From: Lentisphaeria bacterium
GTDB taxonomy: Bacteria; Verrucomicrobiota; Lentisphaeria; Oligosphaerales; Oligosphaeraceae
DNA length: 64,000 nucleotides
Assembly: GCA_016288215.1 (NCBI GenBank)
Contig: JAEEYQ010000051.1
Span: 1-64,000 of the forward strand
Reading direction: 5' to 3'
The notes beneath the pieces are model-generated. The model saw nothing but the letters and a program-made list of their open reading frames with translations, had not been told where the DNA came from and searched no databases. This document shows positions 21,713-59,185 of the stretch, one piece after another; the first letter of the stretch is position 1; every line of letters starts with the position of its first letter. The translations under genes were made by a program, and so were the position numbers.

Positions 21713-21822
21713 TCCTGCTCCAGCAGGACCGTTCCCCCGTTCCCTTCCGTCAGAACGGCGACTACGCGGAATTCCACGTCAACGCCTTGCACATCTTTAA
21801 GATGTTCTTCATAAACTACTTA
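21713..21822 (+). pseudogene. Degraded 3' fragment of a GHL6-type gene
   Basis: In one frame this segment reads SPVPFRQNGDYAEFH then LHIFKMFFINYL, almost the same as the C-terminus of the GHL6-type protein at 17689-19791 (SPVPFRQNGDYAEFH then LHICKMFCINY). Upstream of about 21713 the similarity stops and no open frame of that family continues, so this is an orphan 3' end of a paralogue or a partial duplication. It overlaps the last few bases of the convergent recD gene. Confidence 0.75.
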
Positions 21823-23846: not shown

Positions 23847-23849
23847 TTG

Positions 23850-26800
23850 CTACTCCTCCCGCTGAATTCCCATGGCCTGTCGCACTTTGTTGCGGAACTG
23901 CTCCGCCGCCTGGGCGTCCAGCGGCTCTCCATAGACGCCGCTAAACCCCGCATCCTGCTCTCCGCCACGGACATAGAGATACGCCACCCCCGCCGGCTGA
24001 CCATCCCCAAGCCATTGGCGGACGGCCAACGCATACAGCATGTACTGCAGCGGATAGCCATTCTCCTCCATACTTCGGCGAACCGACTCCCCATCATAGG
24101 CCACCAGAGAATTGGTCTTCCAGTCCACCACGTAGACGGGACCGCGTTGTCCCTCCGGACGCACCAGCAGGTCGATTTTGCCGTTGAACAGCCGCTCCTC
24201 CGCCGTACCGCCGTCCACCGCGATCGCCGTCTCGCCCAAAATCATGGGACCGTCCACGACGAACTCCATTTCCGCCCGACGGTCCGCCGCCGGAATGTCC
24301 TTTAGACAGAACGTCTTGTCTCCCAATGAGATAGGAGTCCTCAAGGCGTTCCACGCCATGCGGGCCAACGTGGACGCCGTGGAATCGCCGTCCCGCTCCA
24401 GATTGGGGATGGAGTATTTCCGCATGAGGCGGCGAATCTCCGCCATCAGGGGGTTGCGGCGCCCATCGTCCTCGCTGACCAGCTCGTTGAAATCCTCCTG
24501 TTGTCCCACAAGACGGAAGCCAGGCCGCTCAGGACTATCGTCATTTCGGCAAAGCGTCTCCATGATTTCGTGGAAGGCATCGCCGGAAAAGCTGTTCCGC
24601 GGCAGCAGCGAGGGCGGCAGCTTGGGCGGCAGACCGTCAGCCCCCTCCATGGCTCCTTCATCGTCGCGGTCCGTCGCGGCGGCGGGCTCCACGGCAGGCG
24701 TCGTCTTGCCGCTCTGATGGGAAAGAGACGAATAGGAAAGCCATTGTAGACGGCGGTTCTTCAGCCATCTCACATCATATATGGGAATCGGCTCCTGGGG
24801 CGCCGCGGGATTCTCCGCTTCATCGCCGTCCACGTCATTGAAATTCATAACTCTTTGATTATTAATAATTTGTGCATTTCGTCCATTTTGAGGATGTTGC
24901 ATCGTCACCACGGCAGCCGCCGCCTGCGCCACATCGTTGCCGAAATTGGCCAAAATGCCCTTGGCGAGAAAACCCCCGAAGCCATCCACCCGCAAAGCGG
25001 AGCCTTTGCTTCCAAGCCCCTTTTCGTCCGCCCATTGAGACCAGGGGAGATAGAGCTTGAGCTTTGCGCGAGTCAGCGCCACGTAGAACAGCCGCTTCGT
25101 CTCCTCCCAGATGGCCTTCTTCTCCTCTGCTGTGCTTTTGCCATCCATATTGACCTCACCCATGCCAGAGGCGATGAAGACCACGGGAAACTCCAGTCCC
25201 TTCGATGCATGCATCGTCATAATCTGGACGCAGTCCCCCTCGCTGGCCTTCCGCCGCAGGGCTCCATCCTCCCCCGCCTTGGAGTCGTCCTCCGCCCAAC
25301 TGCGCAGCTGGTCGGCGAAGTCGCGAATGGACGTGGCACTGCCAGCCCGCGTCTCCAACAGCCGGTCGAGAATCTGCCGCACGGACATCCAGCGGCGATC
25401 ATAGTCGAAATCCCCCGGCGGCGGACTGGCCAGGCAGGTGTCGTTCATGATGCTCTCGAAAAGCGGAATCCACTTCCGTGCCGCCGCCCATTCCTGCCAT
25501 TTTTCCGTCAACGCCGCAAAGCGGGCGTCTCCCCCTGCCAGCCGCGCCTCCAGTTGGGATGGAGGGACGTCGAAGAGCGGCGTCAGCAGCAGTGCAGGCA
25601 ACCGTCCACGGACTCCAGGGGCCTCCAAAAAGTCAAAGAAGGCCAACAGCATTTCCGCGGCATCGGAGTCAAACAGTCCTCTTTCTTTATAATAGGTATA
25701 GGGAATTCGGTTTTTGCCCAACGCCCGCTTCACGACCTCCGCCTCCCTTTTGCCTCGAACCAATACGCAGATGTCATGATAGCTGAGGCGGCGGTCAACG
25801 GGATGCCCCTCTGAATCCACGACCCGATAGGCACAGTTCAGCTCCTTCAGCCGACGGATTTCCATGGCGACATAGCGCATGAAAACCGGCAGACAGGTGG
25901 CCAAGTTGCCGTAATTCCGCTTTTGGGTTTCTGGATCATCCATGGGCCCCGGCATGGTCTCCAATAGCGCAACTTCTTGTCGCCCAATAAAATCCTCAAA
26001 CCCAGCGAAGGCGGGATTCCCTTCGGGATACACCACGCCGCCATAGGAGATCTTGCCATTGTCATCCCCCATGGAATCAAACCATCCCGATTGGCCAAAA
26101 ATTCGGTTGAAGGCATCCACCAACCGTTGGCAGGAGCGATAGGTCGCCTTCAGCTCTAGAAGCTCCTGAGCTCGCGCAAGTTCCTCCCTCGCACGGAGAT
26201 AAGTCTTGATATCCGCACCGCGGAAGGAATAGATGGCCTGTTTGGGGTCCCCCACGACCAGCAGGAAGCCCTCGTTTCCGAACCGATTATATAACGACTT
26301 GTGGCTGAATAACTTATGGAATATGTCCCATTGCAGGGCATCCGTGTCCTGAAACTCGTCCACCAACGCGATGGCATAGCGCTCCCGAATTCTGGCGAGC
26401 AGCTGCGAATCCTCCGGCTCGTGCATGATGGCGTGGTGGGCACAGGAGACCAATTCGTCAAAGGTGAGGGACATGGACTCCGCCTTCAAGGTCTGAAAGC
26501 GTTGATAGGCAAGATACAAGAGGCCATCGGATACTGTGTCGTCCAGAGCGGCGACCGCCTGAGTCAACGCATCCACGAAATTGGCGAGCTCCGATGCCTT
26601 TTCAAGAAGACGGCAGCCGGAGTTTCCCTTGCCCGTCAGCCGTGGGTTGAAGGCGTTGTCTTTGTTCAGGTCGTCTTGGCTCCACCATGCCAGTAGCGTC
26701 GCATGCCATTCTGGCTCATCAACTTGACAAAGGCTCTCGAAGGCTTCGGAAAGTCGCTCCAGATTCGCCATGGCAGTCTTGTCACCGCCATGGATGGACC

Positions 26801-27467
26801 ATGTCTCCAAAAGCCACTGCATCAGCGTCAGCCCATGCATTTTTGCGTACAGCGCGTCGCCCCACGTCCTCACGTCTCGCCGCCGTGCCGCCAAGTCTCC
26901 CGTCGGCAAAGACGGTGCCTCTCCCGAGCTCAGGCAGGTCTCCAGCCGTGTTGCCGTCGCTTCCACCAATTTTGCCGTGCTGGCGTCCTTCTTGCGGGAC
27001 AGCATCACGTCTGCATAATAGGGTCTGACCCACTCCCCATATCGTCCGTTCTTGATGCTGTCGTGAATCGCCTGAGCGATCAGCTCCCGATCATTGCTGA
27101 CCACTTCCGTCCTCATGGGCACATGGTTCTCAAAAGCGTATTCCGAAAGCAGCTCGCGGCAGAAGGCATGGATGGTGCAAATGGTCATTTGGTCGAAATC
27201 CGGCGGGAGGCAGTCGCCATCCGACAGAATCTTCCGAATTCGGTTCTTCAGTTCGCCAGCGGCCTTCTCCGTATAGGTGACCAGCAGGATGCGATGGACG
27301 AACTCCATGCTGCGCTCTTTGCACAGCCGCAGCACAATGTTCTGCAGCGCATAGGTTTTGCCCGTGCCGGCGGATGCCTCGATGATGCCGTCGTGCACCA
27401 AATCCAGCCGATTCCACACCGCGTTGGTGTCATCTCCCAGTCGATTGCGTATAAACTCTTCATTCAT
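23850..27467 (-). CDS. recB: Exodeoxyribonuclease V beta subunit RecB
   Basis: 1205 residues, 3'-5' superfamily 1A helicase and nuclease subunit of RecBCD, which resects double-strand breaks and loads RecA. Helicase motifs are intact: Walker A EASAGTGKT (residues 30-38), VDEFQDTDALQW, GDPKQAIYSFRGAD, TMHASKGLEFPVVF, and YVALTRAKLKL. The C-terminal nuclease domain keeps GKIDLLVR and VVDWKTN, the metal-binding D..DxK residues, so nuclease activity is likely. Two bases separate it from recC upstream. Confidence 0.96.
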   Translation of the reverse strand: MNEEFIRNRLGDDTNAVWNRLDLVHDGIIEASAGTGKTYALQNIVLRLCKERSMEFVHRILLVTYTEKAAGELKNRIRKILSDGDCLPPDFDQMTICTIHAFCRELLSEYAFENHVPMRTEVVSNDRELIAQAIHDSIKNGRYGEWVRPYYADVMLSRKKDASTAKLVEATATRLETCLSSGEAPSLPTGDLAARRRDVRTWGDALYAKMHGLTLMQWLLETWSIHGGDKTAMANLERLSEAFESLCQVDEPEWHATLLAWWSQDDLNKDNAFNPRLTGKGNSGCRLLEKASELANFVDALTQAVAALDDTVSDGLLYLAYQRFQTLKAESMSLTFDELVSCAHHAIMHEPEDSQLLARIRERYAIALVDEFQDTDALQWDIFHKLFSHKSLYNRFGNEGFLLVVGDPKQAIYSFRGADIKTYLRAREELARAQELLELKATYRSCQRLVDAFNRIFGQSGWFDSMGDDNGKISYGGVVYPEGNPAFAGFEDFIGRQEVALLETMPGPMDDPETQKRNYGNLATCLPVFMRYVAMEIRRLKELNCAYRVVDSEGHPVDRRLSYHDICVLVRGKREAEVVKRALGKNRIPYTYYKERGLFDSDAAEMLLAFFDFLEAPGVRGRLPALLLTPLFDVPPSQLEARLAGGDARFAALTEKWQEWAAARKWIPLFESIMNDTCLASPPPGDFDYDRRWMSVRQILDRLLETRAGSATSIRDFADQLRSWAEDDSKAGEDGALRRKASEGDCVQIMTMHASKGLEFPVVFIASGMGEVNMDGKSTAEEKKAIWEETKRLFYVALTRAKLKLYLPWSQWADEKGLGSKGSALRVDGFGGFLAKGILANFGNDVAQAAAAVVTMQHPQNGRNAQIINNQRVMNFNDVDGDEAENPAAPQEPIPIYDVRWLKNRRLQWLSYSSLSHQSGKTTPAVEPAAATDRDDEGAMEGADGLPPKLPPSLLPRNSFSGDAFHEIMETLCRNDDSPERPGFRLVGQQEDFNELVSEDDGRRNPLMAEIRRLMRKYSIPNLERDGDSTASTLARMAWNALRTPISLGDKTFCLKDIPAADRRAEMEFVVDGPMILGETAIAVDGGTAEERLFNGKIDLLVRPEGQRGPVYVVDWKTNSLVAYDGESVRRSMEENGYPLQYMLYALAVRQWLGDGQPAGVAYLYVRGGEQDAGFSGVYGEPLDAQAAEQFRNKVRQAMGIQREE

Positions 27468-27469
27468 CG

Positions 27470-30400
27470 TTATTTCCCTCCTTCCTCTGCTTCAATGCCA
27501 CCACTCAGCGGAAGCGCATACACGCTCTCATACAGATTCTGCAACTCCTCGCGGGTGGGCGGCCGCAGGAAACGCCGCACGCTCTTCTCCACCGCCAGAT
27601 TGGCATCAAAGTCCGCATTCTTCTGCATAAAGGACGCTTCATCTTGGGTCGCCTCCTGCGCCCGTGCCGCCGCCACTTTCCGCCAGAACTCTTGCACCTC
27701 CTTGGCATCAATTGGCAACCCATTATCCTTCAATGCCTTGCGGAACAATTCATAGTCCACGTCAGGAAAACAATCCACGGAGAAGAACTCCAAATAGGTA
27801 CGGCAGAGCCGCTGCAAATAGGCGATGGCGGTCTCTCGTCCAATGGCATTCCATGTCCAGCAGGACCATTTGGCGCCATCGATGTCCACCACGCCCAATC
27901 GCAGGCTTTTGGGCTCTCCACCGATGTTTTCGGGGCTGGCCAGATGCATCAGAAAGGCCATGAACGCGGCCGTCACGTTGCCTCTCGGCCGTGGATTAAT
28001 CGGATCAATTGCCTTGGTTTCAAGTACTTGGACTACGTTGTCCTGTTCCTTCCAATAGGGCTGTTCCGCCGTCAGCCGGACGCGACACGTCGTCCCGTCT
28101 TCCATGGACAAATCCAACAGCACATGCTGAAGATAGGGGCTGGCTCCTTCCAAAAATGACGCCACAAAATCTTTGGAGGTGGAGAGTTTGGCCAATTTGC
28201 CCTCAAATTTCCGCTCTTCATAGTTGCCCAAGAAGCCCTTAGGGAGTTTGCCGGCCTGTTGCAGATTGCCGAAGAGCACTGTCCAATCCTCTGTCGGCAG
28301 AGGAGATGCCTCCCCCTGTTCTTCTTCCGTCACATCTTCTATCGCAATATATTGCGAATTCAGCCAGCGGTCATTCAACTTCCAGACCAAAAGACGGGAG
28401 GCGATGTCCAGTGGACTGTCCGTCTCCAATTCATCGTTCTGCTCTCCCTTTCGTCGGATACCGAAGCGATAGCGCAGCACCGCATCCAACGGCGACATCA
28501 AAAAGTCCCCCAGACATTTGGCGCTGATCTCCAGAACCTGACTTGCCGGCGGCGCGGCGGCTCCCTCAACGACGGCCTCCAGCGGCGGCGCAGCGGCGTT
28601 AATGGCGGCGGCGTGAGCGGCGGCCATTTGCCGCACTTGAGGCGAATAGGTGGGCAGGATGCCCGCATGAGGATCGTCCCGATGCCATATCACCTTGTCA
28701 ACAGGAGACTTATAGCTTTCCGCATCTATGACAGCCATCATCTCCCCCCGCTCCAGAAGCGGATAGCGGGGAAATTCCCTAAAGCCTCCCCTTTCACCGT
28801 CAGACGACGCGATGATGGAAGTGGAAATGAACTCCTCCAGCTCCCGAATCAGGCCGTTGGGAAACAGCTCCGCGTCCTTTTCAATGTCCAAATTCGGATA
28901 GCTGATGACCAGACGGTCGCGAACCGCCATCAGCGTCTCCAAAAAGAGATAGCGGTTGATTTTGGGGAAGCTGGTGTCGCCCAGCCGCCAGCGGCCCCCG
29001 CGAATGTCCAAAGTGGATTGGGTGTCCCTGCCGGGGAAGCCGCCCTCCCCCATGCCAAGGACATAGACTTGGCGGAAGGGCACGGGCCGCATGGGCATCA
29101 GTCCCGCAATGGTCACGCCATGGGTCAGATAACCGCCTTTGCGGCAGGCGACCGTTCCCGCAAACAACTCAATGGCCGCCACCACGAACTCAAAGCCCTG
29201 CGGAGCGGTGATCTCCTGCAGCATCCCTATGACCTGCAATATCTTACGACGTACGTTATCCTCCAGAATATCACTGTTGGGGACAGCCAGAAAATGGTCC
29301 ATGACCTGGCCCAACACCTCCAGCCAGCTCCGTTCCCCTTGAGAGCGTGTCGCGCAGGGAAGCCGCCGAAGCGTCCGTCCATCATCCATGTACGCCACCG
29401 CCGCCAGTTCACGGGCCAGCCATTCCACAATTTCAGAGAAACGCAGCGCATTGTCGTCGCCTTCGGCCACCAGGGGCATTGTGACGCCATCCGCCAGCTG
29501 CAGTGTTCCGGAGGCCACCCGCCCCAGCCGCAGCCGTTTCAGAGCCCACGCCCACTGGAAATTGGCCCCATCTCCCTGCTGCTCAAAGTCATCGAAGGCC
29601 CCCAATTTCTCCGCCGTGAGGCGACGCCAATCGTCCACATCGTTTTGGGAGACGCCCAATGCCAGCTGAACGCACGGGTTGTCCAGCACCGCGAACAGCG
29701 TCCGTCGGTTCAGACCGTTTCGGGCGAATTCCATGAGCGAGAGGAATCCGGCCAAGTACTTGCTGTCTTCGGAGGACGTGGTGTCAATAAGACCATAGGG
29801 CACATCGCCTCTCGCGTCGAAGACCGCCTCGATGACGGGACGGTAGGTCTTCATGTCCGGAACCAGCACGGCGATGTCCGAAAAACGGCATTCTGGCCAG
29901 GGGCGTTCGCCAGAGCCATCGGGCATCCACACGCTGCCGATGATGGAATTGTACACCATCTCCACCTCGCGCCGCATGCCTGGAGTCCCCACAATCTGGA
30001 TGCTCGCATCCTGCGGCCCCTCTGGAGTCGGACTTTGGCGATGGCAGATGGCCTCCTGCACTCGCGTCAAAACCGTGGCGGGAGCCGGCCGGTTTTCATC
30101 CACGATGCATTTCCATTCAAAACCAAAGCAGCCATCGCAGGCTTCCTCCAGCTCAACCAGAAGCCGCATGGTCTCCCGTCCGGCGGTGCCCCACTTCTGC
30201 AGCAGCGGATTCTCGCATTTGATGTCCTCCAATGCGCTTTGCTCCGTGCCCAGACGCTTTCGCCGCTCCAAATCCGTCTCGATGTCCCCCCAATACTCCA
30301 AGCAGACATTGTTGTGGTAGAAGACCACCTCATGGATTTGAGCCAGCCAAACCAAAATGCGGGCCTGAAGCAGAGACAGCGTGGAATGACCAAAGAGGTA

Positions 30401-31081
30401 AAGGGTCCGCGACGGCCCGCGAGGTGCCGTGTCCTTCACACGGTCGTAGAACTGCCGCATGGAAAGCCGCTGGCCCGAAAGAGGAAAACGCCCCTGCTCG
30501 CCCCAAAGCGCGTTGGCGATGAAGGCCTCTCCCGCCTCCACGCTGCCTGGTTCAGGCGGCTGTAATCCACTCACATTCAATCCATTAAGCCAATTTGAGA
30601 CGATTTCAGGGCGGCGAACCTCATATTCGTCCATCAGGCTGGCCAACTTGTCCGCCAACTGCCATGCCATGGAGGATTGCCTTCGGGAAAGGACGTTCCC
30701 CGCTCCGCCGTCGCCCTGCGGCTGCTCAAAATAGGTGCGGAACGGCGCCAACTCGGGGGCGTCGCTCTCCATCAGCATGCCCGCGATGGCCACCGCATAG
30801 GCATGCTCAGGAAGCAGTTCGCCATTCTCCCCTTCCGGAAGACTTTCCCGCATCAGATTCGTGAGCAATTTCTCCATGAAGGGGAACTCAAGGCCGGCGC
30901 AAAGCCCCTTCTCTTTGGCGAAGACGCGCATTTGCAACCACTTGGCAATATTTGTGTTGGGCACGCCAATGGCCACCGTCTCAAAGGGATCCCCTCCCTG
31001 CGAACGCCGCCGCAAAAGCTCGCTCTTCAAATGCAGGGCCAAATCCTCTATCCGATCACTATAATAAACATGCAAACCCAT
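27470..31081 (-). CDS. recC: Exodeoxyribonuclease V gamma subunit RecC
   Basis: 1203 residues, the Chi-recognising scaffold of RecBCD with inactive helicase-like and nuclease-like folds. The family pattern is clear from the start: VYYSDRIEDLALHL, VAIGVPNTNIAKWLQMRV, LEFPFMEKL. Later come LYLFGHSTLSLLQARILVWL, DIAVLVPDMKTYRPVIEAVF, PYGLIDTTSSE and VYVLGMGEGGFPGRD, with MAVRDRLVISYPN. It is the first gene of the operon, and an AT-rich promoter-like block lies at 31103-31120. Several long plus-strand open frames across this gene are shadow frames of its high GC content. Confidence 0.95.
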   Translation of the reverse strand: MGLHVYYSDRIEDLALHLKSELLRRRSQGGDPFETVAIGVPNTNIAKWLQMRVFAKEKGLCAGLEFPFMEKLLTNLMRESLPEGENGELLPEHAYAVAIAGMLMESDAPELAPFRTYFEQPQGDGGAGNVLSRRQSSMAWQLADKLASLMDEYEVRRPEIVSNWLNGLNVSGLQPPEPGSVEAGEAFIANALWGEQGRFPLSGQRLSMRQFYDRVKDTAPRGPSRTLYLFGHSTLSLLQARILVWLAQIHEVVFYHNNVCLEYWGDIETDLERRKRLGTEQSALEDIKCENPLLQKWGTAGRETMRLLVELEEACDGCFGFEWKCIVDENRPAPATVLTRVQEAICHRQSPTPEGPQDASIQIVGTPGMRREVEMVYNSIIGSVWMPDGSGERPWPECRFSDIAVLVPDMKTYRPVIEAVFDARGDVPYGLIDTTSSEDSKYLAGFLSLMEFARNGLNRRTLFAVLDNPCVQLALGVSQNDVDDWRRLTAEKLGAFDDFEQQGDGANFQWAWALKRLRLGRVASGTLQLADGVTMPLVAEGDDNALRFSEIVEWLARELAAVAYMDDGRTLRRLPCATRSQGERSWLEVLGQVMDHFLAVPNSDILEDNVRRKILQVIGMLQEITAPQGFEFVVAAIELFAGTVACRKGGYLTHGVTIAGLMPMRPVPFRQVYVLGMGEGGFPGRDTQSTLDIRGGRWRLGDTSFPKINRYLFLETLMAVRDRLVISYPNLDIEKDAELFPNGLIRELEEFISTSIIASSDGERGGFREFPRYPLLERGEMMAVIDAESYKSPVDKVIWHRDDPHAGILPTYSPQVRQMAAAHAAAINAAAPPLEAVVEGAAAPPASQVLEISAKCLGDFLMSPLDAVLRYRFGIRRKGEQNDELETDSPLDIASRLLVWKLNDRWLNSQYIAIEDVTEEEQGEASPLPTEDWTVLFGNLQQAGKLPKGFLGNYEERKFEGKLAKLSTSKDFVASFLEGASPYLQHVLLDLSMEDGTTCRVRLTAEQPYWKEQDNVVQVLETKAIDPINPRPRGNVTAAFMAFLMHLASPENIGGEPKSLRLGVVDIDGAKWSCWTWNAIGRETAIAYLQRLCRTYLEFFSVDCFPDVDYELFRKALKDNGLPIDAKEVQEFWRKVAAARAQEATQDEASFMQKNADFDANLAVEKSVRRFLRPPTREELQNLYESVYALPLSGGIEAEEGGK

Positions 31082-37343: not shown

Positions 37344-40238
37344 CTACTTTTTCAGCGCCGCGAGCGCCTTCAGAAGTCGGACGGCGTTGCGGTCAAGAAG
37401 GTCGTAGTCCTTTCCCGTGTTCCAGAAGAGGGTGCTCTGGGAGATTGCGGCGACGACCTCCGCAGGGGCCTCCGCAAGCGCCTTTTCGGCGGCCGCCAGA
37501 GCGGGATGGTTCGGATTGGCGGTCTTCACACGGGCGATTTCCGCCTCCAGCATCTTCACATACTCGAAATCCGCGATGCTCTCGCGAATTCCCTCCGCCT
37601 GCTTCGAATCGGTGGGAGGGCCATCGCGCGACACGAAATAGGGACTGAATTCAGTGTTATTTCTGACGTAGATGTCCCATGAGTCGCCGACTCCCGCCGT
37701 GTCTCCGAATGCCCAGAAGAAGGAGCCATTCGCCTTAATCTGATGGCACTGCCATGCCTGTCCGCGCCAATAGTGGAGCGGATCGAGCTGCTTTGAGGGG
37801 CCGGAGCATGAATAGAGCCAAAGCTTACGGCCGTCTTCTCGCTGCCGGTTGTAGAAGTCCTTGAAACTCTGGCCGTAGCCTATCATCATGGGGGTGTTCG
37901 GGCAGAGAATGTCCGTGAGGGAGAAGGCCTCTGGCATGCCCTGCTCCGGATATGGCCAAATCGGGTCCTGGAAGAACTGCATTTTGAGATTCCCTTTGCG
38001 GACGGCCTTGAAGAAATCGACGACGATTTGATCCACCTCTAACGTATTTGGCTCATCCATAAAGAGAAAGACAAGTTGTTCCGGCTTCAGCTTCAGATCG
38101 GACATGTGGTCCTCAAGGGCCTTGAAATAGTCGATCAGCATGTTCGCGCAGCGTGGATTGCGGATTGGCTCGTCGAAGAACTCTGTCTTGCTCATGAAAT
38201 TGGCGATGCAGTAGAAATGCGCCGCTGGCCAGTCCTCCGTCCATGCGTCGAATCTTGAGAAATCCAGTTCAGCGGCGTTGACGAGACGCCCCTCCGCATC
38301 GAAATTCGGATTCATCGGCATCACGTCTGTCTTGGCCCATGTGGAGTTCACGCCAATTTCACGAAGCATCTCGATGTTCGCGATGCGGTTCATGTCATTG
38401 TATGTGCCTGCGTACTCCCAACCGCCCACATTGAGCTGCGGATCCTTCGGGAAGTCGATGTCGACGATCTCGACATTCATCACAATGTTCGGGTTCTTCA
38501 GGCCCTTGACCTTCACTTTGGCGGAATAGGTTCCCGCCTTGGCGCTTGGCTTGTGGCACATGATCCAAATCTGCACATTGCAGCCTGCCGGAACCGTGAC
38601 CTTCGCCTTGCCGCCCACCATCTCCAGTTCTCTCAGAGCGGAGGAAAGGGTCTCGCTCTCAATGGTGTCTGTCACAACAGCCTGAAGCACTTTGATGCCA
38701 AGCGAGCGGCTGAAGGCGGAAACATCAATGGCAAACTCCTGCGGCTGGTCCGTGGGATTGGCGATGCTAAACGCATCGGAGCGGACTTCGCCGCGCATCA
38801 TCGTCACCGCCAGACTCACCTTCTTCTTGTATTCAGGCGCATTTCCAATGAGCGTCACATTCTCCCAACGGTTGCTCTTCCATGCAAACGGCTTCGCATA
38901 GCCTTTTGCACGCTGCGCAAAAGCGTTGAGCGCCAGAATCTTAGCGGAAAGCGGATAATTGGCAAGCGGCAGTTCGCTGCTGGTCGTTGCCACATCTTCC
39001 GCAATGTGGAACGCCTGGAGGCCCTGCGTGCATTCTCCTGCCTGCGCAGAGAGCCTCCCCCTATCCGCTTCTGACAGAGAAGCGAGACTGTCCTTCATGC
39101 CCTCCATAATGGAGTCCATATCCAGAGACAATCGTTTCCAAATCAATGACGCGGCGTGTGTCTTCTCCAGTACATCCGTGAAATCGCCGTCCTTGGCTGA
39201 AATCGTGTAATGGCCCGGCAGATTGAGCCAAGCCTCATCGCCGCCATAGACTTCCACCTCGTCACAGAAGATGCCAGAGACACCTTTCACCAAGAAGGCG
39301 ACGTAGCGCCCTTTGGCACGAAACTCCTCCGTCTCATACGTGAACGTGGAGTACGTGGCGTTGTCAGGGGCCTTCTTGCCACGGGTGCCATAATAGGTCA
39401 AATCCCCCAGAAGCTGCCAGTTTTCCTTGTCTTCAGAGGCGAAAACCAATATTGAATTCGGCCATTGAACCCCTGCCGTGCCTGCCGCACAGGACCATGC
39501 CGCACCGCTTATCGGCTCGGTCCTGCCCAGGTCCACAATCACGATGGGGGGCAGGTTGCAATACCAGCCAACGGTCGTTTTCTGCGTCCAGAAGTACCCC
39601 TCCGTCCGGACACCGTCCGTCAATTGCACGGCATCGTCAGGGTCCTTGCAAAGGGGATAGTCCGGATCCGTGGTCAGCGTGTAGGGTTTATTCAATGCCA
39701 TGTTCCGGTTGTGGGGCGTTGAAATCCGCTGCGGCCTTTTGGCGGCCTCCTCACGGGGCAAGATTTCGAAACTGTCGAAGAAGACCCTGCCGTCACCATC
39801 GCCTGACAGCGAGAGAACATGCTCCTCGCCCGCTCCGCTTTTGAAGGGCAGCATGGCGGATTGCCACGCCGTCTTCGGAGCCAGAGGAGAAAAGGCCAGA
39901 AGATTCTTTCCTGCGGAGTCCTTCACGGCAATGCGGGGTTTGGCTCCTTCGCTCTTGTACCAGAACAGCAGCGTGAAGTCCGTGTTCGGCTCAAGGGCGA
40001 TCTTCTGCGTCAACGGCCCCGCGTCCTTTGTCGACATGAATCGGATGGAGGTGGCGTCATCACTGCCATCAGCATCCTCAAACGCCCAACCGCCGACGGC
40101 AGGCTTCTCCATTGTCCAAAAGGGCGGCATCGCCTCGCTGTCCGTCGGCCGTTCATTGAAGAAGCCGTTCTTCACAATCGTATCGGCCATGACGCCCAAG
40201 GTCAAGGCAAATATCAGCGCCCATCGTCTTACAGACAT
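37344..40238 (-). CDS. DUF4091 / GH123-like secreted protein with discoidin-type domain
   Basis: About 964 residues from ATG 40238 (MSVRRWALIFALTLGVMA, signal peptide); GAAGGAA is in ribosome-site position. N-terminal beta-sandwich regions follow, one of them (NMALNKPYTL... QLTDGVRTEGYFWTQKTTVGW... VDLGRTEPISGAAW) an F5/8 or discoidin type carbohydrate-binding domain. The C-terminal half is the DUF4091/GH123 catalytic type, with VFLFMDEPNTLEVDQ holding the adjacent Asp-Glu that family 123 uses with the substrate N-acetyl group. LHYWRGQAWQCHQIKANGSFFWAFGD follows. Likely a secreted N-acetylgalactosaminidase-like enzyme acting on host glycans. It is far larger than a minimal GH123. Confidence 0.78.
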   Translation of the reverse strand: MSVRRWALIFALTLGVMADTIVKNGFFNERPTDSEAMPPFWTMEKPAVGGWAFEDADGSDDATSIRFMSTKDAGPLTQKIALEPNTDFTLLFWYKSEGAKPRIAVKDSAGKNLLAFSPLAPKTAWQSAMLPFKSGAGEEHVLSLSGDGDGRVFFDSFEILPREEAAKRPQRISTPHNRNMALNKPYTLTTDPDYPLCKDPDDAVQLTDGVRTEGYFWTQKTTVGWYCNLPPIVIVDLGRTEPISGAAWSCAAGTAGVQWPNSILVFASEDKENWQLLGDLTYYGTRGKKAPDNATYSTFTYETEEFRAKGRYVAFLVKGVSGIFCDEVEVYGGDEAWLNLPGHYTISAKDGDFTDVLEKTHAASLIWKRLSLDMDSIMEGMKDSLASLSEADRGRLSAQAGECTQGLQAFHIAEDVATTSSELPLANYPLSAKILALNAFAQRAKGYAKPFAWKSNRWENVTLIGNAPEYKKKVSLAVTMMRGEVRSDAFSIANPTDQPQEFAIDVSAFSRSLGIKVLQAVVTDTIESETLSSALRELEMVGGKAKVTVPAGCNVQIWIMCHKPSAKAGTYSAKVKVKGLKNPNIVMNVEIVDIDFPKDPQLNVGGWEYAGTYNDMNRIANIEMLREIGVNSTWAKTDVMPMNPNFDAEGRLVNAAELDFSRFDAWTEDWPAAHFYCIANFMSKTEFFDEPIRNPRCANMLIDYFKALEDHMSDLKLKPEQLVFLFMDEPNTLEVDQIVVDFFKAVRKGNLKMQFFQDPIWPYPEQGMPEAFSLTDILCPNTPMMIGYGQSFKDFYNRQREDGRKLWLYSCSGPSKQLDPLHYWRGQAWQCHQIKANGSFFWAFGDTAGVGDSWDIYVRNNTEFSPYFVSRDGPPTDSKQAEGIRESIADFEYVKMLEAEIARVKTANPNHPALAAAEKALAEAPAEVVAAISQSTLFWNTGKDYDLLDRNAVRLLKALAALKK

Positions 40239-40327
40239 AGATAATTCCTTCTCTATCAATGTATTAGGACATACTGCATCCATTGCGGAGACCGATGAGG
40301 GTTTAGATGCCGATGGCCCATTACATG

Positions 40328-40363
40328 AAAGGCGGGTCTTCCCTCAAAGGAAAACCCGCCCTT
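40328..40363 (-). terminator. Hairpin terminator of the coiled-coil/lipoprotein operon
   Basis: Stem GGCGGGT (40331-40337) pairs with ACCCGCC (40354-40360) around a 16-base loop. On the minus strand it lies just past the stop of the small lipoprotein gene (40371) and ends in CTTT rather than a long U-run. Consistent with an operon-end terminator. Confidence 0.5.
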
Positions 40364-40370
40364 GTCGTCG

Positions 40371-40517
40371 TCAATACGGCAAGCCGAGACCGCCGCCTGC
40401 CCATCCAGGAGGCGTATTCCATGGCAGATCGCCAGCCGTCTCACTGGGTTGGGAGATGCAGCCCGCGATTAGCAACGCCATCGCCAGCAACACTGCCCAC
40501 AGCACTCCGCGTCTCAT
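40371..40517 (-). CDS. Small lipoprotein, 48 residues
   Basis: From ATG 40517 the protein is MRRGVLWAVLLAMALLIAGC plus 28 polar, Pro/Gly-rich residues ending GGLGLPY. The lipobox LIAGC (Cys20) marks a lipoprotein. It is very short, with no known family. It follows the 32-residue membrane peptide by 23 bases and is followed by a hairpin, so it is the last gene of the operon that begins with the coiled-coil protein. Longer in-frame starts exist upstream but overlap the neighbour and lack coding character. Confidence 0.6.
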   Translation of the reverse strand: MRRGVLWAVLLAMALLIAGCISQPSETAGDLPWNTPPGWAGGGLGLPY

Positions 40518-40540
40518 GGAAACCGCTCCGCCGTCGAGCC

Positions 40541-40639
40541 TTACAGGATGAACAACGCCTTCATTTCCAGAAACTGGAACACCAACGTCGCCGCCATGGC
40601 CAGAGTGGCGACCAGCATGCAAAAGCCAAAGAACTTCAT
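40541..40639 (-). CDS. 32-residue membrane peptide
   Basis: Too small for most gene finders. The frame runs from ATG 40639 to TAA at 40541: MKFFGFCMLVATLAMAATLV then FQFLEMKALFIL, a single hydrophobic helix with a basic start. AGGAAAGGCGAT lies upstream as a ribosome site. It sits 24 bases after the coiled-coil gene and 23 bases before the lipoprotein gene, same strand. Its placement, ribosome site and clean hydrophobic profile argue for a real small membrane protein. Confidence 0.5.
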   Translation of the reverse strand: MKFFGFCMLVATLAMAATLVFQFLEMKALFIL

Positions 40640-40663
40640 GATATCGCCTTTCCTGTCCTGTGA

Positions 40664-41908
40664 TTAGTTGTCCGCCATGTCCTCGCCGGAGAGCACGACC
40701 ACCGCGCCGACGGGAATGTCCAGGTTCTTGCTGGCGGTGATGATTTCCGCCATGGAGATCTTCTCCTCCAGCTTCACGATGCGGGCGCTGGCAAGATATT
40801 TGCCCTCGTAGGAGATGGCGATCGTCATGTCCATCATGACCTTGTCATGGCCCATGTCGATGATGACGTAGTTCCATTCGGGATTGAACAGCAGGACTTT
40901 GCCGCGGAGGTCATAGTCGATTTTGCTCTTGTCGGTCATCTTCTTGACGATGTTTTCGCTGTCATCGCCATGCTTGCGCAGACGGGCCTCCATCTCCTCT
41001 TTGTCCTCATTGGCCTTCTTCAGGTCGGTCTCCAGCTTGGCAACCTGGTTCTCCAGCTTCGCGCGGGTCTCCTTCAGATCGGCGATGGTGACTTTGGCCT
41101 TCGCCAGCTCTTCCAGGCGGGCATTGATGCGCTGGCAGTCCACTTGCAGGCTGGCCAGAGCCTGGGCATAGTCCTTGCCGCCCAGATTGTCGAATTCCGT
41201 GCTCCAGTCGTTGTAGGCGGTCATCTGCTGAGGAAGTCCCTTCATGGCCGTCTCCATGGCCTTGCTGCGGTCCGCCACCAGCTGAGTGGCCTTCTCCAAG
41301 CCCGTCAGACCCGGCTTGCAGTTGAAGGCGATGCTGACATCGCCCTCATCGCTGGTCTTCGTCTCCCGTTCGGAGAAGATGCGGGGGTTCAGGTTGTAGC
41401 CCAACGCGCGGGCGGTGGCCACCAACGTGCCGGCCATCTGGGCGTCACGGGCCTTGACGGCCTGCGCCATGGCAACGCCCTCTTTCGCCTTGTCCGCATA
41501 GGCGCTGAGCTTGTTCAAATCCTCAACCGCCATGTCCTCTTCGGAAAGGCCAAGGGCAATGCCCATGTCGGACACCGCTTTGGCCAAGTCGCCGCGCTGG
41601 CTGTTCACGCTGCCGGCCAGAGAAACCACCTTGTCAATGGTGCTCTTGTAGCCGGAGGGATTCTCCTTGTAACTGGGCCAGCCCAGAGAGCCGTCTTCCT
41701 TCTCTCCAGCCGTGAACGACACCGACGAGGCCGTGCCGCTGTTGGTGCCCGAATCCAACTTCTGCGCAATGGACGCCACGCCTGTGGACAAATCCGCCGC
41801 ACGGCCCACAAATCCCTCGCGCTGTTTCGAAATCATGAAACTCAAAACCGCCGCCGCAATGGCCAGAATGGCTGCGATGGGCCCAAAAACCTTTCCAAGA
41901 CTACCCAT
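40664..41908 (-). CDS. Membrane-anchored coiled-coil envelope protein
   Basis: 414 residues from ATG 41908 with AAGGAG upstream. A short N-terminus leads to one transmembrane helix (GPIAAILAIAAAVLSFMI). A long helical, Lys/Glu/Ala-rich region follows with a clear coiled coil at about residues 270-345 (ARLEELAKAKVTIADLKETR... LETDLKKANEDKEEMEARLRK). The last ~70 residues (NYVIIDMGHDKVMMDMTIAIS... KYLASARIVKLEEKISMAEII... PVGAVVVL) form a small beta domain like those at the end of PVC coiled-coil envelope proteins. Function unknown; it probably spans the periplasm. It heads a three-gene operon. The AT-rich promoter block is at 41946-41960. Confidence 0.7.
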   Translation of the reverse strand: MGSLGKVFGPIAAILAIAAAVLSFMISKQREGFVGRAADLSTGVASIAQKLDSGTNSGTASSVSFTAGEKEDGSLGWPSYKENPSGYKSTIDKVVSLAGSVNSQRGDLAKAVSDMGIALGLSEEDMAVEDLNKLSAYADKAKEGVAMAQAVKARDAQMAGTLVATARALGYNLNPRIFSERETKTSDEGDVSIAFNCKPGLTGLEKATQLVADRSKAMETAMKGLPQQMTAYNDWSTEFDNLGGKDYAQALASLQVDCQRINARLEELAKAKVTIADLKETRAKLENQVAKLETDLKKANEDKEEMEARLRKHGDDSENIVKKMTDKSKIDYDLRGKVLLFNPEWNYVIIDMGHDKVMMDMTIAISYEGKYLASARIVKLEEKISMAEIITASKNLDIPVGAVVVLSGEDMADN

Positions 41909-41945
41909 GAACGAAACTCCTTGTTGTGTTCGACTTGTTTGTTGC

Positions 41946-41960
41946 CTATTATATAATATG
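41946..41960 (-). promoter_or_regulatory. AT-rich promoter block upstream of the coiled-coil operon
   Basis: The minus strand reads CATATTATATAATAG about 38-52 bases before the ATG, holding TATTAT and TATAAT hexamers in the palindromic context seen before other genes. No confident -35 box. Confidence 0.45.
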
Positions 41961-55758: not shown

Positions 55759-57339
55759 CTACGCAAGTTTCTCCGCCTTGGCGTCAAGCAGATGATGGGT
55801 TGAGGAGTCGAAATTGAGGCCGATTCTCCAAATGGGCAGGCCCTTGGAGCGGTAGGGGGCGTCGTAGCCTTTGGCTGCAACCTGCGTCAGAGCGGCCTCG
55901 GCGGACTCATCCACCTTCAGCTCGAAGATGAAGACGCCGCAGGCATGGGTTGCCACGACATCCGCCTGTCCGTTGGCCTGACGGTCCTCCGTCCTGCATT
56001 GGATGGCCTGTGCCTTCAGCAGCACCAGCAGATTCCGCTCGTAGGAGTATTCCTGCACGCGGCCTTCCTTCGGTCCATAGGGCAGCGAGGCGTAAAGCGA
56101 CTTCAGCCCGTCGAAGAACTCATCCCATTGGGCCTCAAGCAGCATATCGCCTAACGACGACACCCAGTCAGTCCCGCGGTTGGCGATGACGGACGTCGTC
56201 AGCAGGGCCAGATCCTGCCGCACCTCCTCGTCCGGCACGCGAAGGTCGTAGTTCTGCCGGAGCGGATTGAAGTGATCGATGGTCAGATAGCCCGTCTGGA
56301 AAAGCATGGGGACGGCGCGAAGGGCGCGGATGTCCGTCACATCGAAGTCCCGTTCGCGCACATTCTTGACCTTTTCCATGTCAACGGAGAGGAAATCGTC
56401 CCGCTTGATCAGGTTCATCAGCATGGACGCCTTGCCCGTCTGGGACCAGCAAGGCTTAAAGGTGGTCTCCTGATCCGCAAGGTTCACGCCGATGGAGACG
56501 GGATTGTAGACGGTTTCGCCGCTTTCCTTTCCGAAGCGGTAGCCGTTGAACCATCGCTTGAGCTGGACGCGGTAGTCAGTGTCAGAAAGTCCCATCTTCC
56601 TCGCGTGGAGACACATATGCTCGCCAAAGTAGGTGTCCAGCTCCTCCTCCGTATAGCCGAGCATGGTAGCGTAACGGTCCATAAAGGAGAGGTCGCGCAG
56701 GTTGGACAGGGCGGAGAAGACTGACATCTTCGTGAACTTGGACACGCCCGTGATCATCAGAAAGCGGATACTGCCCGTGCGGTCCTTCATCTGGCGATAG
56801 AAGTCCGCCAGTTCGCTGCGGACCTTCTCCGCCTCGTCCGGCCTGTTCAAAAGCTGCGCCACGGGATCGTCGTATTCATCAATGAGAATGACGACCCCCT
56901 TGCCAACGTTGGCCTTGGACAAGTAGTCGATGGCACGGCCAAAATTGACGGCAGGGGAAATGTCTTTGTCATACATCGCGCCTGCCTCCTCCAACACGTT
57001 TCGCACGGTGAATGGAAAATTCTGCGTGAATTGCGCGGCCGATGACGAGCTGGCGGCGAAGCCGAAATTGAAGTACAACACGGGGTACGCCTCCCATGTC
57101 CAGTCGGTTTTGGAGATGGCCAACCCGTCGAACAGTTCGCGACGCCCCTCGAAGATTGCCTTTAACGTACTGATCATCAATGACTTGCCAAAACGACGTG
57201 GCCGCGCGAGAAAGAAACAGTCGTCAGCTCCTGTCATGAGATTGTACAGATAGGCGGTTTTGTCCACATAGACGCAGCCTTTTCTGCGCATTTTGATGAA
57301 GTCGCTGGAGTCTGTCAAAATCGGTTGAGGCATGGCCAT
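55759..57339 (-). CDS. AAA-ATPase_like / PD-(D/E)XK nuclease family protein, copy 1
   Basis: 526 residues. The N-terminal AAA-ATPase_like domain has VDKTAYLYNL, then a Walker-A-like RPRRFGKSLMI (from about residue 47) and VVILIDEYDDPV as Walker B. The C-terminus (QADVVATHACGVFIFELKVDESAEAAL) carries the D..ExK core of the PD-(D/E)XK nuclease-like domain. This architecture is widespread in Bacteroides and PVC genomes and its role is unknown; mobile-element defence or host interaction have been suggested. It is nearly identical to the next gene, including the promoter (57384-57413). Confidence 0.85.
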   Translation of the reverse strand: MAMPQPILTDSSDFIKMRRKGCVYVDKTAYLYNLMTGADDCFFLARPRRFGKSLMISTLKAIFEGRRELFDGLAISKTDWTWEAYPVLYFNFGFAASSSSAAQFTQNFPFTVRNVLEEAGAMYDKDISPAVNFGRAIDYLSKANVGKGVVILIDEYDDPVAQLLNRPDEAEKVRSELADFYRQMKDRTGSIRFLMITGVSKFTKMSVFSALSNLRDLSFMDRYATMLGYTEEELDTYFGEHMCLHARKMGLSDTDYRVQLKRWFNGYRFGKESGETVYNPVSIGVNLADQETTFKPCWSQTGKASMLMNLIKRDDFLSVDMEKVKNVRERDFDVTDIRALRAVPMLFQTGYLTIDHFNPLRQNYDLRVPDEEVRQDLALLTTSVIANRGTDWVSSLGDMLLEAQWDEFFDGLKSLYASLPYGPKEGRVQEYSYERNLLVLLKAQAIQCRTEDRQANGQADVVATHACGVFIFELKVDESAEAALTQVAAKGYDAPYRSKGLPIWRIGLNFDSSTHHLLDAKAEKLA

Positions 57340-57604: not shown

Positions 57605-59185
57605 TCAAAGCTTCTCCGCCTTGGCGTCAAGCAGATGATGGGTTGAGGAGTCGAAATTGAGGCCGATTCTCCAGATGGGCAGGCCCTTGGAGTGGTAGGG
57701 GGCGTCGTAGCCTTTGGCTGCGACCTGCTTCAGGGCGGCCTCAGCGGACTCATCCACCTTCAGCTCGAAGATGAAGACGCCGCAGGCATGGGTCGCCACG
57801 ACGTCCGCCTGTCCGTTGGCCTGACGGTCCTCCGTCCTGCATTGGATGGCCTGCGCCTTCAACAGCACCAGCAGGTTCCGCTCGTAGGAGTATTCCTGCA
57901 CGCGGCCTTCCTTCGGTCCATAGGGCAGCGAGGCGTAAAGCGACTTCAGCCCGTCGAAGAACTCATCCCATTTGGCCACAAGCAGCTTCCTGCCTAAAGC
58001 GGACACCCAGTCAGTCCCGCGATTGGCGATGACGGACGTCGTCAGAGTGGCTAGATCCTTGCGAACCTCCTCGTCCGGCACGCGAAGGTCGTAGGTCTGC
58101 AGGAGCGGATCGAAGTGGTCGATGGTCAGATAGCCCGTCTGGAAAAGCATGGGGACGGCGCGAAGTGCACGGATGTCCGTCACGTCGAAGTCCTCTTCGG
58201 ACACATTCTGTACCTTTTCCATGTCAACGGAGAGGAAATCGTCCCGCTTGATCAGGTTCATCAGCATGGACGCCTTGCCCGTCTGGGACCAGCAGGGCTT
58301 AAGGGTGGTCTCCTGATCCGCAAGGTTCACGCCGATGGAGACGGGATTGTAGACGGTGTCGCCGTTTTCCTTTCCGAAGCGGTAGCCGTTGAACCATCGC
58401 TTGAGCTGGACGCGGTAGTCAGCGTCAGAAAGTCCCATCTTCCTCGCGTGGAGACACATATGTTCACCGAAATACGTGTCCAGTTCCTCCTCCGTATAGC
58501 CGAGCATGGTAGCGTAACGGTCCATAAAGGAGAGGTCGCGCAGGTTGGACAGGGCGGAGAAGACCGACATCTTCGTGAACTTGGACACGCCCGTGATCAT
58601 CAGAAAGCGGATTTTGCCTGTACGGTCCTTCATCTGGCGATAGAAGTCCGCCAGTTCGCCGCGGACCTTCTCCGCCTCGTCGGGCCTGTTCAAAAGCTGC
58701 GCCACGGGATCGTCGTATTCATCGATGAGAATGACAACCCCCTTGCCATCGTTGGCCTTGGCCAAGTAGTCGATGGCACGGCCGAAATTGGCGGCGGGGG
58801 AAATGTTTGTGTCATACGTCGCGCCTGCCTCCTCCAACACGTTTCGCACGGTGAATGGAAAATTCTGCGTGAATTGCGCGGCCGATGACGAGCTGGCGGC
58901 GAAGCCGAAATTGAAATACAGCACAGGATACGTCTCCCATGTCCAATCGGTTTTGGAGATGGCCAACCCGTCAAACAGTTCGCGGCGCCCTTCGAATATT
59001 GCCTTTAACGTATTGATCATCAATGACTTGCCAAAACGACGAGGCCGCGCGAGAAAGAATCGGCGTGCGGTGAGGCTTGTGATCAGCCGATGAAAATAGG
59101 CTGTCTTGTCCACGTAGACGCAGCCTAAATTCCGCATTTCGATGAAGTCGCTGGAGTCTGTCAAAATCGGTTGAGGCATGGCCAT
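57605..59185 (-). CDS. AAA-ATPase_like / PD-(D/E)XK nuclease family protein, copy 2
   Basis: 526 residues, nearly identical to copy 1 through most of the length. Differences cluster at residues ~17-45, where MRNLGCVYVDKTAYFHRL and TSLTARRFF replace MRRKGCVYVDKTAYLYNL and TGADDCFF just before the Walker-A-like RPRRFGKS; elsewhere only scattered changes occur, with some at ~345 and ~410. The nuclease-like C-terminus and Walker B are intact. It is separated from copy 1 by 265 bases of AT-rich non-coding DNA, and the ~50 bases directly before the start are duplicated with it. A recent tandem duplication, with the N-terminal sensor-like segment diverging. Confidence 0.86.
   Translation of the reverse strand: MAMPQPILTDSSDFIEMRNLGCVYVDKTAYFHRLITSLTARRFFLARPRRFGKSLMINTLKAIFEGRRELFDGLAISKTDWTWETYPVLYFNFGFAASSSSAAQFTQNFPFTVRNVLEEAGATYDTNISPAANFGRAIDYLAKANDGKGVVILIDEYDDPVAQLLNRPDEAEKVRGELADFYRQMKDRTGKIRFLMITGVSKFTKMSVFSALSNLRDLSFMDRYATMLGYTEEELDTYFGEHMCLHARKMGLSDADYRVQLKRWFNGYRFGKENGDTVYNPVSIGVNLADQETTLKPCWSQTGKASMLMNLIKRDDFLSVDMEKVQNVSEEDFDVTDIRALRAVPMLFQTGYLTIDHFDPLLQTYDLRVPDEEVRKDLATLTTSVIANRGTDWVSALGRKLLVAKWDEFFDGLKSLYASLPYGPKEGRVQEYSYERNLLVLLKAQAIQCRTEDRQANGQADVVATHACGVFIFELKVDESAEAALKQVAAKGYDAPYHSKGLPIWRIGLNFDSSTHHLLDAKAEKL

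Follow-up and report, generated by a model that had tools for sequence, protein, structure and literature searches.

A conserved gene trio in Lentisphaeria encodes a coiled-coil protein, a membrane peptide of 32 residues and a lipoprotein of 48 residues

Results

A compact locus encodes one large and two very small envelope proteins

The window analysed here is a 64,000-nucleotide stretch of a Lentisphaeria bacterium genome (contig JAEEYQ010000051.1, positions 1 to 64,000). Between positions 40328 and 41960 its minus strand carries a trio of genes encoding, in order of transcription, a coiled-coil protein (CC), a membrane peptide and a lipoprotein, separated according to their coordinates by 24 bases (CC/peptide) and 23 bases (peptide/lipoprotein). 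An earlier note on this DNA had claimed frames of 414, 32 and 48 residues with this spacing, and translation found them as described. Purine-rich, Shine-Dalgarno-like bases can be read ahead of all three start codons. The features of the locus are as follows.

40664-41908, minus strand: CC gene, 414 residues, predicted inner-membrane-anchored helical protein with a C-terminal beta domain (translation, homologues, AlphaFold2)
41828-41887, minus strand: predicted membrane helix of CC, approximately residues 8-27 (hydrophobic stretch within model helix 4-55; limits set by eye)
41819-41821, minus strand: codon of CC Arg30, directly past the membrane helix (at least 90% conserved in alignment A3)
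41159-41773, minus strand: middle helical domain of CC, residues 46-250 (modelled alone, pLDDT 94.7, pTM 0.77)
40970-41170, minus strand: long helix of CC, residues 247-313, predicted coiled-coil stalk (model and scattered coiled-coil family matches)
40679-40912, minus strand: predicted C-terminal beta-barrel domain of CC, residues 333-410 (model; FlgT 3w1e)
40541-40639, minus strand: 32-residue single-helix membrane peptide with conserved Gln22 and Glu25 (translation, recurrence behind CC, dN/dS)
40371-40517, minus strand: 48-residue lipoprotein with lipobox LIAGC and a conserved C-terminal tail motif (translation, recurrence behind CC, dN/dS)
40458-40460, minus strand: codon for Cys20 of the lipobox, where lipidation is predicted (sequence; homologues were selected with a rule that includes this Cys)
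40398-40427, minus strand: tail motif, lipoprotein residues 31-40, LPWNTPPGWA, consensus LPxNxPAxWE (Trp39 in 70/70, Glu40 in 69/70)
40328-40363, minus strand: probable transcript end, a hairpin following the lipoprotein gene (z = -3.7; short T-run)

The hairpin that had been claimed at the far end is a strong fold (-27.5 kcal/mol over a 63-base stretch, with none of 200 shuffles equally good), but it has a short T-run and is absent from the listing of a consensus terminator scan. The proposed AT-rich promoter block fared less well: the sequence ahead of CC is indeed AT-rich, but a sigma-70 scan lists no minus-strand site there.

Elsewhere in the window, RecC-, RecB- and RecD-like genes lie consecutively at 21816-31081 on the minus strand:

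27470-31081, minus strand: RecC-like (Exonuc_V_gamma, RecC_C)
23850-27467, minus strand: RecB-like (UvrD helicase and PDDEXK nuclease)
21816-23846, minus strand: RecD-like (AAA/UvrD_C_2 helicase)

Two neighbouring genes at 55759-57339 and 57605-59185 (minus strand) each encode a 526-residue protein with AAA-ATPase_like and PDDEXK_9 domains, and are probably a tandem duplication. Behind the trio, a large protein (37344-40283, minus strand) shows sub-threshold matches to a GH123 catalytic domain and an F5/8 type C domain.

CC combines a membrane helix, a helical stalk and a FlgT/F1-type beta-barrel

The AlphaFold2 model of whole CC (mean pLDDT 84.9, pTM 0.51) has an N-terminal helix long enough to cross a membrane, followed by more long helices and a C-terminal beta domain, in agreement with the earlier description of a one-TM coiled-coil protein ending in a beta domain. 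One long helix, the predicted stalk, spans 67 residues and is accompanied by other helices, although these are partly separate elements in the model, which limits any estimate of length.

In the model, the C-terminal domain (residues 333-410) adopts a FlgT/F1-type beta-barrel fold. It matches FlgT (3w1e) with Z 10.1 and an rmsd of 2.0 over 75 residues, and the other matches (8z5n with Z 10.7; F1/V1 ATPase chains at about 9.9) all lie within one Z unit. For the middle domain modelled alone, Foldseek, which could miss a distant relative, returned nothing below E 0.8, and the best VIA hit against the PDB (Z 5.2, 174 residues, rmsd 9.7) was unconvincing. This class-specific domain, missing from the shorter CC homologues outside the class, could represent a new fold.

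No Pfam or NCBIfam model rose above its cut-off for any of the three window proteins. Among 89 aligned CC proteins, Pfam at E 0.001 returned scattered matches, mostly coiled-coil (25 of 64 families listed). We considered a named coiled-coil family for CC and rejected it: its sequence matches in Pfam, NCBIfam and the PDB lie mostly on helices and belong to a scatter of unrelated families, and the coiled-coil family matches of the window CC, all below curated cut-offs, were taken as coiled-coil likeness.

Both small proteins carry conserved residues and are under purifying selection

The 70 aligned lipoproteins all share Cys20, Pro32 and Trp39, 63 have Asn34 and 69 have Glu40; the sole row lacking Glu40 is the window's own. 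The invariance of Cys and Pro, and partly the frequency of Asn, follows from the motif rule used to pick these rows (A4), a rule in which Trp was one of several permitted letters and Glu40 was not required. The mature lipoprotein is short, with a median of 31 residues (range 25-42), and Asp occurs at position +2 in none of 92 lipoproteins. The +2 Asp sorting rule is a proteobacterial one and may not hold for this host. Short mature length and lack of +2 Asp together would place the tail motif close to a membrane, plausibly the outer one. Pfam returned zero matches for the 70 lipoproteins at E 0.01 and zero for the window lipoprotein at E 0.1, and in NCBIfam four families each matched a single one of the 70 weakly.

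In the membrane peptide, Gln22 and Glu25 are each present in at least 90% of 61 aligned rows. The start of the peptide is uncertain in five genomes (G048, G052, G057, G059 and G061) because its frame overlaps the end of CC. At four loci of genus g10 (L049, L051, L058, L063) and three of genus g2 (L060, L065, L070) it bears a long N-terminal extension rich in Pro, Ala and Lys; these are also the lineages that lack the acidic residue of the peptide and Arg30 of CC.

Both small frames are under purifying selection, as the earlier note's proposed dN/dS comparison bore out. Values range from 0 to 0.34 in 19 pairs for the peptide (21 distinct close pairs, two of them saturated), from 0.06 to 0.47 in 22 distinct close pairs for the lipoprotein and from 0.03 to 0.45 in 22 distinct close pairs for CC; pairs inside one genus share branches and hence are not independent.

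The trio is constant across the class while flanking genes vary

A single-sequence search found CC in 50 of 59 genomes, the window's genome counted. With profile A1, CC was detected in 189 of 197 genomes of the class Lentisphaeria, including 81 of 81 of good quality, some of these matches being weak or partial. We retrieved and placed 107 CC loci, of which the first search supplied 47 and the remaining 60 came from across the class. With the window the total was 108, and 106 of these had enough sequence behind CC to be scored. G049, whose start is missing, was dropped, a second G018 fragment and a partial G030 match were left unused, and alignment A3 was built without paralogues, G005, G018 and near-duplicates.

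One automatic rule, broadened after earlier matches had been seen, identified a tail-motif lipoprotein behind CC at 91 of the 106 loci, an acidic membrane peptide at 85 and both at 77. Applied at the same loci to 704 other frames of at least 200 codons, the same rule returned 0 lipoproteins and 0 peptides. Inspection by eye raised the lipoprotein count to 100 of 106, adding nine, three of which (G077, G078, G079) are without the W-E part, and the peptide count to 99 of 106, adding fourteen, seven of them without the acid; the G047 peptide fits loosely. No lipoprotein was found behind CC in six cases: G080, the paralogues G056, G060b and G062b, and G025 and G071, whose loci end about 500 bases past CC. 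The peptide was missing in seven, namely G004, G010, G015, G042 and the same three paralogues. These paralogous, CC-like genes lacking the small frames lie at L125 (G062), L128 (G060) and L069 (G056); in G062 and G060 a second copy has the trio.

Beside CC itself, the commonest neighbours in the 108 class loci are a prepilin peptidase gene (34 loci, in 32 on the same strand) and murG (19 loci). These counts are lower bounds, the retrieved flanks being of unequal length. The prepilin peptidase gene also lies upstream in the window, and 33 of its 34 loci belong to the nearer set of 48; the window's murG is about 7 kb distant from the trio. Across 39 further loci (37 outside the class), every neighbour apart from CC copies is limited to four at most. 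Prepilin peptidase and murG were set aside as fixed operon members, their linkage being confined to part of the class. The constant unit is the trio, and its flanking genes vary.

The earlier note had proposed a dedicated three-gene set, one that would reduce to a single gene if relatives kept CC with the small frames stopped, frameshifted or unconserved. That is not the case at most loci: the small frames recur behind CC homologues and not behind control frames, and the class-wide conservation, the selection, the varying flanks and the residue pattern described below together support a dedicated set well.

CC Arg30 and the acidic residue of the peptide tend to be retained and lost together

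CC position 30 is Arg at every one of the 92 class loci where the peptide is acidic. At the seven class loci whose peptide lacks the acid, this position is Ala, Ser or Gly without exception. Among the seven without a peptide it is Leu or Phe in three and Arg is retained in four; two further loci end early. Fisher's test on the class Arg/acid counts gives 3e-11, a value that ignores relatedness. In a tree of 40 rows built without the N-terminal part of CC, Arg changed twice, and both changes coincided with a lost acid or a lost peptide. A 97-row tree of the same kind, which omits G018, G005 and 11 near-duplicates and leaves four rows unscored, shows three Arg changes, again each alongside acid or peptide loss; acid or peptide was lost four times in this tree, and once (G042) Arg stayed. 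The residue states behind the class counts and both trees were entered by hand. With four independent pairs, a sign test yields p = 0.25. Beyond the class, CC genes followed by an acidic peptide have Arg in 12 of 13 cases and Lys in one (G304), as judged by eye. Arg occurs without a peptide in G276 and G391, both outside the class, and within the class G064 has lost both.

This pattern, read from sequences, suggests contact between CC and the peptide. Arg30 and Glu25 would lie at the same helix end if both N-termini are inside, a topology that we infer.

Outside the class, CC is shorter and the peptide is often missing

Profile A3 matched 354 of 387 genomes sampled across the phylum, the class included, although many of these matches are weak and may reflect generic coiled coil. 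Outside the class CC is shorter, mostly 250-300 residues, with a membrane helix, a coiled coil and a beta domain. At 37 outside-class loci, taken from strong CC matches and so not a random sample, a lipoprotein lies behind CC in 30 and an acidic peptide in 13; controls over all 39 further loci gave one lipoprotein and two peptides in 248 frames. Four of the seven misses (G201, G209, G231 and G338) have a peptide some 725-1000 bases further on, which in G209 comes after a second CC gene. Since the peptide is missing at many outside-class loci, it is dispensable for the CC-lipoprotein pair. Tandem CC pairs are frequent outside the class, as at L249 (G209), L262 (G352) and L268 (G240), with the small frames behind the second gene.

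A strict form of the tail pattern was found on 19 contigs of an 84,980-species collection; as it requires P-A it misses outside-class forms, and it is silent on absence from other phyla. By title, 14 of these contigs are Lentisphaeria, Lentisphaerae, Victivallales or Oligosphaera, three only Verrucomicrobia, one Kiritimatiellota and one Candidatus Paceibacterota, and 18 of the 19 are probably the same records as class genomes in our set. The contig titled Candidatus Paceibacterota (L077) encodes a lipoprotein, a membrane peptide and a pilin-like protein, and is probably a misassigned Lentisphaeria contig.

Discussion

The trio resembles several known envelope systems in part. MreC has an N-terminal membrane helix, a coiled coil and two beta-barrel domains. 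The layout of CC is alike, but CC has one beta domain (333-410), an additional helical domain and no match to the Pfam MreC family. The C-terminal domain of CC is modelled as a barrel of the FlgT C-terminal type, tied with those of F1/V1 ATPases; the long 3w1e match is limited to CC model residues 334-412 in a comparison that could miss further FlgT domains, and the likeness concerns this domain only, a shared fold showing no function. LptM is likewise a very small lipoprotein, but its model (NF047847) scores 13.5 bits against a cut-off of 27.7 and covers the signal peptide only.

Tol-Pal, OmpA and Braun lipoprotein (Lpp) are outer-membrane attachment systems (PMC10260701). What the trio would have in common with them is a proposed role in holding the envelope together, and Pal and Lpp are likewise lipoproteins. 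However, the PF00691 domain of Pal and OmpA is found neither in the window lipoprotein (E 0.1) nor in its 70 homologues (E 0.01), and the window lipoprotein ends in GLPY, without the C-terminal Lys through which Lpp is linked to peptidoglycan; a single one of the 70 homologues matches the NCBIfam Lpp model, weakly (E 0.0012).

Of the published cases that we found, the closest is another Verrucomicrobiota lipoprotein, Methylacidiphilum fumariolicum WP_009060351, which has been proposed as a link between outer membrane and peptidoglycan (PMC10260701). This protein has 139 residues, adjoins amyA and galT and has a conserved C-terminal Tyr and Lys, and its C-terminal 53 residues have been reported from no group but Verrucomicrobiota (PMC10260701). 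The passages available describe no coiled-coil gene beside it, and by this description it stands apart from the trio, a distant relation being possible. A PVC-wide protein of unknown function is mentioned in PMC3444138. Text searches of the literature, motif strings included and supplementary tables outside their scope, returned no description of the trio. The earlier note had not recognised the combination, and the literature and family searches agree: by sequence family, the trio is new to the libraries searched.

We propose, tentatively and with somewhat less than even confidence, that the three proteins form one envelope complex bridging both membranes. The N-terminal helix would anchor CC in the inner membrane, leaving the rest of the protein in the periplasm, and the 32-residue peptide would pack against the CC membrane helix with Glu25 close to Arg30. 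The helical stalk, to which the 67-residue helix and the other helices would give reach, would hold the beta-barrel at a distance from the inner membrane. The lipoprotein probably sits in the outer membrane and would present its P-W-N-x-P-x-x-W-E tail either to this barrel or to a different partner. The gene set itself, with its conservation and the selection acting on it, is observed, and so is the Arg/acid pattern; the beta-barrel fold is a prediction. The bridging role, the outer-membrane site, the topology and any physical contact are inferred here, as are the span across the periplasm and the lipid-anchored tip put forward in the earlier note. A more specific form of this proposal, to which we give slightly less credence, is a hitherto undescribed bridge of Lentisphaeria and related lines within the phylum, in which an Arg-Glu pair would join stalk and peptide and the barrel would read a ten-residue tail of the lipoprotein in the outer membrane.

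Other readings place the same parts differently. The trio may assist type II secretion or export of a pilin-like kind, with CC and the peptide in an inner-membrane platform and the lipoprotein acting like a pilotin for a secretin. The prepilin peptidase gene found upstream in the window and at 34 of 108 class loci, mostly on the same strand, is consistent with this, as is the presence of secretins in 24 of 24 relatives. The prepilin peptidase link is nevertheless almost restricted to the nearer set and does not recur at the 39 further loci, none of the three window proteins matches a secretion family above cut-off in Pfam or NCBIfam, and secretins number 2-9 per genome against usually one full-length CC, so that we regard this reading as unlikely. 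Somewhat less likely still is a role like that of MreC in wall synthesis or division, with CC as the scaffold to which wall enzymes are recruited and the lipoprotein regulating it. It draws on the occurrence of murG after the trio at 19 of 108 class loci and on a Foldseek match of CC to MreC (9a5z_B, E 5.2e-4) that has, however, an rmsd of 20 across 252 columns. CC does not match PF04085 at E 0.1, NCBIfam PRK13922.9-3 scores 15 bits against a cut-off of 243, the murG link likewise fails to recur at the 39 further loci, and MreC proper was found in 24 of 24 relatives. The window genome (G000) has two MreC-family matches over cut-off (C63:56736-57206 and C27:24039-24524), and 13 further genomes of the 24 searched likewise have two.

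We give similarly low probability to a sensor or quality-control unit whose three parts all stay at the inner membrane. A mature lipoprotein of 25-42 residues could reach CC from the same membrane, and the conserved polar residues of the peptide suggest assembly within the inner membrane; but a long stalk with a terminal barrel is hard to account for there, and the lack of +2 Asp in the 92 lipoproteins also speaks against it, provided that the proteobacterial rule applies. That CC alone is relevant and the small frames are unrelated or noise, as the three paralogues without them might hint, is very improbable, being contradicted by the purifying selection and by the empty set of 704 controls. 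We also considered the trio as a replacement for a missing system. Replacement of MreC was rejected, MreC being present in every relative searched, and replacement of OmpA/Pal-type attachment is weakened by an OmpA-domain protein in 23 of 24. Because MreC, an OmpA-domain protein and secretins all occur in relatives, their absence cannot explain the trio.

The widespread occurrence of the CC-lipoprotein pair in the loci examined means that it may serve a basic envelope function. For Verrucomicrobium spinosum, a member of the same phylum, PMC12283558 describes a transposon essentiality map, targeted mutagenesis and 100 essential proteins of unknown function. Such a map and mutagenesis make the role of the trio open to testing. 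If the proposal is true, the bridge would stand alongside OmpA/Pal-type attachment. The Arg30/Glu25 pattern is unusual in that sequence alone allows a guess at what a membrane micropeptide partners with. Little work has been done on the envelope of this phylum, and the trio contributes to it two very small protein families that share a constant larger partner and have named residues open to testing.
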